Source: Anaerolineae bacterium
GTDB lineage: Bacteria; Chloroflexota; Anaerolineae; Aggregatilineales; Ch27
Assembly: GCA_013178165.1 (NCBI GenBank)
Contig: JABLXG010000004.1
Span: forward strand, 62,001-126,000
DNA: 64,000 bases
Reading direction: 5' to 3'
This document shows positions 47,850 through 54,001 of the stretch, piece by piece. The notes below the pieces were generated by a model that was given only the letters and a program-made list of their open reading frames with translations, was not told where the DNA came from and made no database searches. How positions within the stretch are numbered: the first letter of the stretch is position 1; each line of letters opens with the position of its first letter. Both the position numbers and the translations under genes were made by a program.

Positions 47850-47922
47850 GGCCCCGTAGCTCAATTGGCAGAGCAGTTGACTCTTAATCAATTGGTTGGA
47901 GGTTCGAGTCCTCCCGGGGTCA
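47850..47922 (+). tRNA. tRNA-Lys, anticodon CTT
   Basis: A 73-base cloverleaf: acceptor GGCCCCG with CGGGGTC (one G-U pair), D-stem GCTC/GAGC, anticodon stem GTTGA/TCAAT with loop CTCTTAA (anticodon CTT), T-stem GGAGG/CCTCC with loop TTCGAGT, and discriminator A. CCA is not encoded. It reads AAG codons. It has its own promoter and terminator. Confidence 0.95.
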
Positions 47923-47960: not shown

Positions 47961-48123
47961 GTTGGGCGGCTCCTTCCACCTGGCGGTGGGGACGGGCTTC
48001 CCGGAGCTGGGCGGCAAGAACCAGTCTGCCATCCACTGGGACATGATCTGTGACATGCGCGCTGGTGGCGAGATCAACGTCGATGGTGAGCTGTTCTACC
48101 GGGATGGTGAATTTGTGGTATAG
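47961..48123 (+). pseudogene. 3' remnant of an M29 aminopeptidase gene
   Basis: The frame ending at 48123 encodes about 53 residues that match the C-terminus of M29 (aminopeptidase T/S/II-type) metallopeptidases. It contains 'FPELGGKNQSAIHWDMICDM' and then 'GGEINVDGELFYRDGEF', including the HWD metal-ligand segment. The other roughly 350 residues are missing: immediately upstream is the tRNA-Lys terminator. An eight-T terminator follows at 48201-48226. This is a deletion or recombination scar, not a functional gene. Confidence 0.7.
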
Positions 48124-50988: not shown

Positions 50989-51018
50989 CACGGAGCCGCA
51001 CCCCGACAGGAAAGGCTA

Positions 51019-51048
51019 TTGACACCTGGTATAGCCGTCCCGTACAAT
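51019..51048 (+). promoter_or_regulatory. Strong promoter ahead of the ABC-F leader
   Basis: TTGACA (51019-51024) and TACAAT (51043-51048), spacer 18. Transcription from here would give a leader of about 290 bases before the ABC-F ATG at 51345. Confidence 0.75.
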
Positions 51049-51081
51049 CGAGGGCAGTAACGGTGCAGCAGGAGGTTGTAG

Positions 51082-51105
51082 ATGATCCGCGTAACGGCCC
51101 GTTAA
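51082..51105 (+). CDS. Seven-codon leader peptide ORF upstream of the ABC-F gene
   Basis: ATG ATC CGC GTA ACG GCC CGT TAA encodes MIRVTAR. A perfect AGGAGG (51070-51075) lies six bases before the ATG, so it should be efficiently translated. It sits about 30 bases after the presumed transcription start and about 100 bases before an intrinsic terminator. It looks like a leader peptide for ribosome-mediated attenuation, as described for several antibiotic-resistance ABC-F genes. The coding bases CGTAACG (51090-51096) can pair with CGTTACG (51134-51140). Confidence 0.6.
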   Translation: MIRVTAR

Positions 51106-51151
51106 AAGGACGCACCGCGCCTTTGTGACGTGACGTTACGGCACACCTTGC

Positions 51152-51166
51152 GCCCGGCTTCCGGGC
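51152..51166 (+). promoter_or_regulatory. Leader hairpin
   Basis: GCCCGG (51152-51157) pairs with CCGGGC (51161-51166) around a three-base loop, in the ABC-F leader. Its partner role in antitermination, if any, is unknown. Confidence 0.5.
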
Positions 51167-51205
51167 CGGGGACTGCAACCGCAATTGACTCACATCGCCT
51201 CACAC

Positions 51206-51238
51206 AGCCGCGGGCGTCTTGCCTGCGGCTTGTTGTTA
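51206..51238 (+). terminator. Intrinsic terminator inside the ABC-F leader (attenuator)
   Basis: AGCCGCGGGC (51206-51215) pairs with 51221-51230 (one G-U) around a five-base loop, followed by TTGTTGTT. It stands between the promoter plus leader ORF and the ABC-F coding region, so it can control read-through. A second, smaller hairpin followed by Ts lies at 51305-51322. Confidence 0.7.
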
Positions 51239-51344
51239 TCTGTGCGGCGGCCCAGCCCACGTAGGCTTGTGGCTGCCCCGGGTTGGAAGACAGCTCTCGG
51301 CTGCAGGCGGCGCCCGCTTTTTGAAGGGAAAGGAAGCCGCCATC

Positions 51345-53000
51345 ATGTTAGCAGTCAATCAACTTACCAAACGTTACGGCTCGGAGCTGATCTTCCGCAA
51401 CGTCAGCTTTCTGGTCAATTATGGCGAGCGGGTCGGCCTGATCGGCCCCAATGGCTGCGGTAAGTCCACCCTCCTGCGCATCATCGCCGGGGAGGAGGCT
51501 CCCTCCGCCGGGAGCGTGAGTTTCACGCCGCCAGACCTGCGCGTCGGCTACCTGCCGCAAGGGCTGGAGCCACCGCCTGGCGCGACGGTGGGCGATGTGC
51601 TCTACCCGCAGGCCAGGGCGCTGGCCGCGCTGGAAGCCGATCTGGAGCGCCTGAGCACACAGCTCGCTGACCGGCCCGATGATCCATCAGTAGTGGCTAC
51701 CTATGCCGCCGTCCTTGGCCGGATCGAGCGCCTGAGTCGTCTGATCCAGCCGGAGACCAGCGGCCCGATCCTGGCCGGGCTGGGGCTGGATGGCCTGCCA
51801 CTGGATACCCCCGTGGCCATCCTCAGTGGGGGGCAGAAGACCCGGTTGGGACTGGCTCGCCTGCTGATCGCTGCGCCGCAACTGCTGTTGCTGGATGAGC
51901 CGACCAACCATCTGGATATCACCACCCTGGAGTGGCTGGAGGGTTGGCTGGCGAGCTTCCCCGGCGCGGCGCTGATCGTCAGCCATGACCGGACTTTCCT
52001 TGACCAGACCGTGACCCGTGTAGTGGCGATGGACCCGTTTGAAATGACGGCCCAGAGCTACGCCGGTGGCTACACGGCCTATATCGACGCTGTGGCCAGA
52101 GCGCGGGAGAAGCAGTGGGCGCAGTGGCGCGACCAGATTGTGGAGGTCGAGCGCTTGCGCCGCGATGTCGAGCGGACAATGGCTCGCGCTATCCGCAAGG
52201 AAAACGCCACGAAGAACGACCAGCAGCGGCGCTACGCCAAAAAGGTTGCCAAAAAAGCCAAGGCGAAGGAAAAGCGTTTGGAACGCTACCTGGAATCTGA
52301 GGAGCGCGTGGAAAAGCCGCGCCTGACCTGGCAGATGAAGCTGGACTTTGCCGCTATCGAGCCGGGCAGCCGTGACGCGCTGCGCCTGGTCGACCTGGCG
52401 GTAGGCTATGATCCTGCTGCTCCATTACTGGCCAACATCAACCAGACGATCCGCGCCGGGGAGCGTATCGTCCTGCTGGGGCCAAATGGCTGCGGCAAGA
52501 CCACCCTCCTGCGCACGATCATGGGCGAATTGCCGCCGCTGGCCGGGAGCGTTTACCTGGGGCCAAGCACGCGGGCCGGGTACCTTTCCCAGGAACAGGA
52601 TACGCTGGATGTTTATGAGAACGCCCTGGAGGCAGTCCTGGCCGTGGCTACCCAGAGCGAGACAGAGGCCCGCACCTTCCTGCATTACTTCCTCTTCAGC
52701 GGGGATGACGTATTTGTGCCGGTTCCCGAATTGAGCTATGGCGAGCGCGCCCGGCTGATGCTGGCCCTCCTGGTGGCGCAGGGCTGCAATCTGCTTATAC
52801 TGGATGAGCCGATCAATCACCTTGATGTGCCGTCGCGGGAGCGCTTCGAGCAGGCCATGAGCAGCTTTGACGGCACTGTGCTGGCCGTGGTCCATGACCG
52901 TTATTTCGTCGATCGCTTCGCTACGCGGGTGTGGATGGCGGAAAGCGGCACGGTGCACGCCTATCTGGATCGCGCGGAAGCGCGAGCCGCTCTCGGATGA
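51345..53000 (+). CDS. ABC-F ATPase (ribosome-associated type)
   Basis: The 551-residue protein has two ABC cassettes and no membrane domain. NBD1: 'GPNGCGKSTLL', 'LSGGQKTRLGLARLL', 'LLLDEPTNHLD'. NBD2: 'GPNGCGKTTLL', 'LSYGERARLMLALL', 'LILDEPINHLD'. The linker (about 250-350) is strongly basic and helical ('AKKVAKKAKAKEKRLERYLE'), as in the ribosome-E-site-binding ABC-F proteins. Members act in translation, and some protect the ribosome from antibiotics. The attenuation-like leader supports an inducible, protective role, but whether it is a resistance protein cannot be decided from sequence. The frame upstream to 51219 is not coding. Confidence 0.93.
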   Translation: MLAVNQLTKRYGSELIFRNVSFLVNYGERVGLIGPNGCGKSTLLRIIAGEEAPSAGSVSFTPPDLRVGYLPQGLEPPPGATVGDVLYPQARALAALEADLERLSTQLADRPDDPSVVATYAAVLGRIERLSRLIQPETSGPILAGLGLDGLPLDTPVAILSGGQKTRLGLARLLIAAPQLLLLDEPTNHLDITTLEWLEGWLASFPGAALIVSHDRTFLDQTVTRVVAMDPFEMTAQSYAGGYTAYIDAVARAREKQWAQWRDQIVEVERLRRDVERTMARAIRKENATKNDQQRRYAKKVAKKAKAKEKRLERYLESEERVEKPRLTWQMKLDFAAIEPGSRDALRLVDLAVGYDPAAPLLANINQTIRAGERIVLLGPNGCGKTTLLRTIMGELPPLAGSVYLGPSTRAGYLSQEQDTLDVYENALEAVLAVATQSETEARTFLHYFLFSGDDVFVPVPELSYGERARLMLALLVAQGCNLLILDEPINHLDVPSRERFEQAMSSFDGTVLAVVHDRYFVDRFATRVWMAESGTVHAYLDRAEARAALG

Positions 53001-53050: not shown

Positions 53051-54001
53051 ATGGCGAATGCGATGGCTGAACTGATTGTGCGCATGGCGACGCTGGATGA
53101 CACCGCCGCCATCACTGCAGTCCATACTTCCAACATCGAACGCTGGCAGCGCGTGAACGAGGCCGGGGTTGTCGAAGATGTTCCCTACGAACAGTTGCGC
53201 ATCTACGAGCGCTGGCTCTACGGCGGCCCGTGGATGAGTGTGGAAACCTGCGCCGTGCACCTGACCCACCTGTTGCGCGGGGCGGGCCTGCCCGTTGTGG
53301 CCGAGGCAACGGGGCGCGTCGTCGGGCACGGCGAAGCCTATCATGGCGTCGAGCCGGAGCCGTTCGGCTCGCACCTGCACGTCTCTGTGCTGTATGTCCA
53401 TGCAGACTACGCCGGGCAAGGGGTGGAACAGGCATTGCTGACTCACCTGATCGCGTTGGGTAAGGAGCGCAGCTGTGCACGGGTATGCCTGCCCGGCGCG
53501 GATGCCAGGGCGTTCTATGACGGTGAGGACTGGCGACGGTTGGTCCGCCGCCAGCGGGTCAGCTGGCCGGCGCGGAGCGGGCAGGTGTTCTACCAGGCCA
53601 CGCCCCATCCTGACGACGACCCGGCTCAAATTCGCGGCTGGGCCATGCCGCTGGGCCGCGAGCAGAGCGCCCACTATGAATGGGTGACCCACTGGCCAAC
53701 GCTCTGGATGGCGGTGCCGGAGTTGCGCGAGCAACGCGTCGAACGCTTCAAATTCCAGGTGGCGGGCGGGACATTCTTTGTGATGTACATCCAGTCGCGC
53801 TATGACCCGCGCTGGGCCACACTTTACGTCTGGTCAGGCACACCGTTGATCGGGCCAATGATGACCGCCATCAACGACAAGGCGCACAAGCTGGGCTTCC
53901 GCCGCCTGGAATCGATCGTGATCGGGGAGCCGTACGGTTTCCTTGGCCCGGAGGTGGAGCGCCTGGACGAGCCGCGCGACGTATTCAGCATCGAACTGTG
54001 A
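53051..54001 (+). CDS. GNAT-family N-acetyltransferase-like protein
   Basis: The 316-residue protein has a GNAT fold in its first half ('LIVRMATLDDTAAITAV' start, 'VLYVHADYAGQGVEQALLTHL' acetyl-CoA loop region, 'CLPGADARAFYDG'). The second half, about 145 residues, is a second, less conserved domain. The loop reads 'GQGVEQAL' where most have 'RGxGxG/A', so cofactor binding may be weak. ATG 53051 or 53063 could start it. Substrate is unknown. It lies 50 bases after the ABC-F gene. Confidence 0.75.
   Translation: MANAMAELIVRMATLDDTAAITAVHTSNIERWQRVNEAGVVEDVPYEQLRIYERWLYGGPWMSVETCAVHLTHLLRGAGLPVVAEATGRVVGHGEAYHGVEPEPFGSHLHVSVLYVHADYAGQGVEQALLTHLIALGKERSCARVCLPGADARAFYDGEDWRRLVRRQRVSWPARSGQVFYQATPHPDDDPAQIRGWAMPLGREQSAHYEWVTHWPTLWMAVPELREQRVERFKFQVAGGTFFVMYIQSRYDPRWATLYVWSGTPLIGPMMTAINDKAHKLGFRRLESIVIGEPYGFLGPEVERLDEPRDVFSIEL

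Follow-up and report, generated by a model that had tools for sequence, protein, structure and literature searches.

The locus considered here raises the question of whether an ABC-F gene is switched on by a ribosome that is held on a seven-codon reading frame in its leader, as was proposed in a preliminary description of the same stretch of DNA (64,000 nucleotides, hereafter the window). Drug-responsive ABC-F attenuators are known from Firmicutes and Actinobacteria; an earlier description of such an attenuator in this lineage was not found among open-licence papers. With a probability of roughly 0.83, the leader is read here as a ribosome-mediated attenuator of an ABC-F ribosome-protection gene for which induction is predicted, and sequence comparison gives good support to the proposal that a ribosome on the leader ORF governs attenuation, the ORF being conserved in relatives. 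The features on which the argument depends are the following:

51019-51048, + strand: sigma-70-type promoter, TTGACA-N18-TACAAT (-35 box TTGACA at 51019-51024, -10 box TACAAT at 51043-51048)
51070-51075, + strand: Shine-Dalgarno sequence AGGAGG of the leader ORF, with a 6-nt spacer to the ATG at 51082; the 16S rRNA of the genome carries the matching anti-Shine-Dalgarno sequence
51082-51105, + strand: leader micro-ORF MIRVTAR, seven codons, stop codon TAA
51090-51140, + strand: anti-antiterminator hairpin P1/P2, pairing CGTAACG (51090-51096) with CGTTACG (51134-51140)
51107-51122, + strand: putative antiterminator strand (the GGACGCACCGCGCCT region), directly after the leader stop codon and inside P2, complementary to the 5' arm and loop of the terminator
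51206-51230, + strand: intrinsic terminator stem-loop AGCCGCGGGCGTCTTGCCTGCGGCT, with its tail at 51231-51240
51299-51315, + strand: segment complementary to the terminator loop and 3' arm (51212-51230), a pairing that would form in read-through transcripts
51306-51341, + strand: hairpin predicted by folding, GGCGGC...GCCGCC, enclosing the ABC-F Shine-Dalgarno region (about 51326-51336)
51345-53000, + strand: ABC-F ATPase gene, ribosomal-protection-like, 551 aa, stop codon TGA (NF000355 414.8 bits, cut-off 380)

The anatomy of the leader is directly observed and agrees with the elements named beforehand, namely a strong promoter (11 of 12 consensus matches with an 18-nt spacer), AGGAGG six bases before the ATG, the ORF MIRVTAR, the complementarity of this ORF to CGTTACG downstream, and a 10-bp stem with a T-rich tail. 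The terminator stem was found to comprise 10-11 bp (-20 to -21.5 kcal/mol), and relatives have a stronger tail, TTTTTGTT, than the TTGTTGTTAT present here. Three elements are added to that description: the strand following the leader stop codon, the hairpin over the ABC-F ribosome site together with its pairing with the distal arm of the terminator, and an avoidance of UGA as the leader stop codon. When both strands of the window were searched for a Shine-Dalgarno score of at least 6, an ORF of 3-10 codons and a terminator 35-135 nt downstream, the combination was met once, at this locus. The 291-nt leader also folded better than 200 of 200 shuffled sequences (z -2.85). No Rfam family exceeded its gathering score at 50990-51380; a sub-threshold sucA-II match on the opposite strand was taken as chance.

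The gene downstream of the leader, already called an ABC-F gene in the preliminary description, is a ribosome-protection ABC-F by family score, and resistance activity is predicted for it; the same NCBIfam ribosomal-protection-like ABC-F family was matched by all 23 orthologs scanned. ABC-F proteins of the ARE4 group have been reported from Actinobacteria and Chloroflexi (PMC6723617), and the best specific NCBIfam model after the general one was that of TlrC/CarA/OleB/SrmB (ARE4). Because the score of 346.2 bits with this model (NF000171) compares with a cut-off of 800, the window protein is not an ARE4 member by this test. A GNAT acetyltransferase-domain protein is encoded at 53051-54001 (+), starting 50 bp after the ABC-F stop codon, and its gene is possibly co-transcribed with ABC-F and so under the same switch.

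Orthologs for comparison were taken from the same order and phylum as the window. A search of genome contigs with ABC-F-wide patterns returned mostly paralogs, and the best named relative in that search, an Anaerolineaceae MAG gene at 45% identity, was without the leader. This relative and the reports of ARE4 proteins from Chloroflexi make Chloroflexota the likely phylum of the window. At a Shine-Dalgarno threshold of 5, a Shine-Dalgarno-led micro-ORF with a terminator was observed before 29 of 35 order orthologs, as opposed to 1 of 109 control genes, which were the other genes at these loci; given these counts and its single occurrence per 64 kb, the arrangement is not due to chance. The sole positive among the control genes (locus L022) lies upstream of a 315-aa ORF, where a Shine-Dalgarno-led micro-ORF, MIGIL, is followed by a terminator, and could be a second attenuator or a chance occurrence.

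In total, a micro-ORF of 3-10 codons was found before 55 orthologs, and a mechanical ranking by Shine-Dalgarno strength selected the same ORF as the choice by hand in nearly all loci. Lack of the leader ORF in close relatives had been named beforehand as grounds for abandoning the idea; the ORF is present in all four same-family genomes (MIGVTAR, MTVRSNSA, MAGLTDR, and MFRVTTR) as well as in most distant orthologs, including MVRSEVPQR, MTRTEVNH, MSTRIANR, and MIGQVNN elsewhere in the order, and MTDSNL, MTDNL, MIRINC, and MRQ in other parts of the class and phylum. The peptides differ greatly in length and sequence, and even two genomes of the same genus do not share one (MIRVTAR and MIGVTAR). 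A promoter-like match to TTGAC(N17-20)TA(N3)T was present in 22 of 30 order-level upstream regions, and terminators are situated about 40-130 nt past the leader stop codon in nearly all orthologs. Five distant loci (L149, L150, L155, L161, and L164) are without a terminator and have a leader of 3-7 codons located 51-75 nt from the ABC-F start, an arrangement that may represent translational rather than transcriptional attenuation.

Is the ORF tied to the RNA structure that follows it? An alignment of the window's family and its sister family yielded one composite hairpin, P1/P2, extending from the 3' half of the ORF to 51140, in addition to the terminator; the apical part (51100-51130) begins in the last sense codon of the leader. 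Covariation in P1/P2 was observed directly (alignment A4), with seven pairs changed on both sides and a score reached in 0 of 500 shuffles, slid control structures scoring far lower. Among 34 order leaders, the duplex between the ORF and region 2 was more stable with its own partner (-20.8 kcal/mol) than with swapped partners (-17.7 kcal/mol), and 0 of 2000 swaps were as good. Both tests argue for a hairpin that involves the ORF and would compete with the antiterminator. The claim for P1 is limited to the order, since pairing between the ORF and region 2 was without support in the class- and phylum-level set (n=13). A model of the P1/P2 hairpin gave one match per genome, only before ABC-F, in six genomes, and weaker matches (E 0.002-0.05) are probably chance; the leader of G003, from the same family, was undetected with model R1. 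MAFFT/RNAalifold on a wider part of the order recovered the terminator alone.

The remaining helices were observed as sequence complementarity. In the window, the antiterminator duplex of 51107-51122 with 51206-51220 spans 14 bp (-22.0 kcal/mol), and among the seven nearest leaders, five (L002-L006) share the antiterminator block. The swap test between region 2 and the terminator gave no signal (z -0.5), and outside the window's family the antiterminator was no better than shuffles, so that its support comes mainly from near relatives. The second-layer duplex of 51212-51230 with 51299-51315 reaches -32.9 kcal/mol, with a mean z of -2.6 against shuffles in seven relatives, and most of these duplexes are retained in near relatives. 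The segment at 51299-51315 also forms one side of the predicted hairpin over the ABC-F Shine-Dalgarno sequence, which is clear in L002 and L003 and different or absent in some relatives. As far as complementarity goes, the leader can adopt the alternative pairings 1:2, 3:4, and 5:6 (off) or 2:3 and 4:5 (on).

From these pairings we infer the order of events, the read-through, a second layer of control and the class of inducers. Without drug, ribosomes would translate MIRVTAR and depart fast, and the 3' half of the ORF would pair with 51123-51140 (P1/P2), thereby locking the antiterminator strand at 51107-51122; the terminator at 51206-51230 would then form and transcription would end before the gene. 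An inhibitor holding the ribosome at the start or first codons would block P1, leaving the antiterminator strand past the stop codon exposed to pair with the 5' arm of the terminator, so that RNA polymerase would read through. Once polymerase has passed the terminator, its distal arm would be free and could pair with 51299-51315, opening the hairpin over the ABC-F ribosome site as a second, translational layer.

The expectation that a ribosome on the leader alters its folding held for partial transcripts of relatives and failed at equilibrium. Equilibrium folding showed the terminator to be far more stable than the alternatives, with almost no relief by a ribosome in nearly all sequences; because the terminator wins at equilibrium, the switch would have to be kinetic and act during RNA synthesis. 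Partial transcripts ending at the terminator loop were also modelled with a sliding 30-nt ribosome footprint, counting pairing with upstream partners only. The terminator 5' arm paired with upstream RNA at a mean of 0.36 without a ribosome and 0.64 when the P site was at the start codon; the gain was greatest for P-site positions at codons 1-2 (+0.28 to +0.29; up in 16-18 of 28 leaders, down in 1) and faded beyond codon 5. The ribosome effect in the leaders' own sequences exceeded that in leader-swapped (z 2.6) and ORF-shuffled (z 3.9) controls. Modelled pairing increased from 0.73 to 0.88 in the sister species and from 0.38 to 0.83 in L005; in the window itself it was unchanged (0.88 without and 0.89 with a ribosome), for which the model is uninformative because pairing is already 0.88 without a ribosome.

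Since modelled antitermination is strongest at leader codons 1-2, the inducers are likely to be inhibitors of the start or of early elongation (lincosamides, pleuromutilins, and streptogramin A) rather than macrolides acting by Arg-x-Arg stalling. Lincosamides, streptogramin A, and pleuromutilins cause start-codon or early stalling on the are5sc and tiaA leaders (PMC12421871), and leaders that rely on stalling at the start need little peptide specificity (PMC9226507, PMC10201436). The preliminary description had remarked that an obvious Arg-x-Arg motif is missing from the leader, and no conserved Arg/Lys-x-Arg/Lys stall motif was detected in MIRVTAR or the other leaders, for which reason a macrolide-type (erm-like) leader was rejected. 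Its absence is to be expected if the switch, as the model indicates, is most sensitive to a ribosome held on the start codon.

The choice of leader stop codon bears on a rather unlikely alternative, in which the same type of switch would be triggered by a late stall, at the last sense codon or the stop codon, through the nascent peptide or inhibition of a release factor. Across 55 loci (L002-L168), the leaders end in UAA (33) or UAG (22) and never in UGA, as a late stall might lead one to expect, and the 15 stop changes reconstructed on the tree are all between UAA and UAG. UGA ends 27-29 of the 55 ABC-F genes of the same loci as against 0 of 55 leaders (Fisher p 2e-10, without correction for kinship). 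Erythromycin blocks termination at the UAA of MsrDL, where the choice of stop codon matters for induction (PMC10314930), and the leaders share a loose peptide pattern (R at -5, A/T/S at -3, N or S at -2 in 34/55) that would also suit a late stall. Yet once the stop codon occupies the A site, the ribosome would mask the antiterminator strand, and of seven near relatives modelled with a ribosome at the stop codon, three showed lower arm pairing, among them the window (from 0.89 to 0.48, self-pairing inside the arm being counted), and none showed higher; the wide variation in leader peptide length and sequence likewise speaks against it. The avoidance of UGA possibly stems from release-factor choice, UGA read-through, or RNA constraints. 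An improbable though broader proposal would have the leader as an ancestral translation-stress sensor that has stayed with a single ABC-F gene across much of the phylum and in which leader termination must use the UAA/UAG-reading RF1, so that the switch would read the state of termination as well as start-codon stalling.

Classical amino-acid attenuation, with an uncharged tRNA stalling the leader ribosome, would employ the same three-helix geometry, and arginine is the commonest pooled leader residue after methionine (47). It is nevertheless very improbable, as no single codon forms a run or a conserved repeat in the leaders, their residues differ among relatives, MTDNL, MIISL, and MTDSNL are devoid of arginine, and the gene is not biosynthetic. 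That the terminator merely ends transcription of clpB, whose end lies 30 bp upstream of the -35 box, with ABC-F constitutive from an undetected promoter and the micro-ORF incidental, is scarcely credible, given that the promoter sits between clpB and the terminator, that the upstream sequence changes among relatives (in L005, for example, to the end of another gene) without separating the promoter-like sequence, the micro-ORF and the terminator, and that the ORF and the downstream arm covary. As an aside, a peptide ending in GGKNQSAIHWDMICDMRAGGEINVDGELFYRDGEFVV, encoded in the window at 47986-48123 (+) close to a tRNA at 47850-47922, is almost the same as the end of the gene that immediately precedes the ABC-F leader in L005; it looks like the truncated end of an aminopeptidase-like gene.

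The ribosome-mediated attenuator proposed here most resembles the vmlR leader of Bacillus subtilis (uORF MIN; PMC9226507), which likewise has a uORF inside an anti-antiterminator hairpin, an antiterminator, an intrinsic terminator with a distal arm that base-pairs within the leader sequence of the ABC-F gene, and a hairpin that covers the Shine-Dalgarno sequence of this gene and is opened in read-through RNA, as is predicted for the window leader. The window ORF differs in being longer (seven codons), of unrelated sequence and from another lineage, with the antiterminator strand directly after the leader stop codon. The Streptomyces are5sc (MLV) and tiaA (MVGDDDISG) leaders (PMC12421871) are also very short ORFs before ABC-F genes, on which start-codon stalling by drugs has been shown, as it is presumed for the window; their leader ribosome sites overlap antiterminator hairpins, whereas in the window, from another lineage, the 3' half of the ORF forms the anti-antiterminator. 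Short ORFs similarly precede the ABC-F resistance genes cplR (MR[I/M]) and lsaA (MAGN), although the mechanism described for cplR induction is translational attenuation, and lineage and leader sequences differ (PMC10201436). MsrDL (MYLIFM), the leader of msrD, shares ribosome-mediated transcription attenuation of an ABC-F gene (proposed for the window) and a non-UGA stop codon; unlike its peptide-specific macrolide stalling at a UAA stop codon (PMC10314930), window-type leaders are without a conserved peptide and use UAG beside UAA.

The proposed switch is of a known kind, conserved across a deep lineage, and the new points are the depth of that conservation and the avoidance of UGA. It is a chromosomal arrangement that recurs in different families of one order, and other classes of the phylum have it in shorter form. 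The wealth of natural leader variants allows one to ask which features a leader peptide needs, which it has to lack, and what lies behind the avoidance of UGA, and such deep conservation suggests a long-standing exposure of environmental bacteria to ribosome inhibitors.
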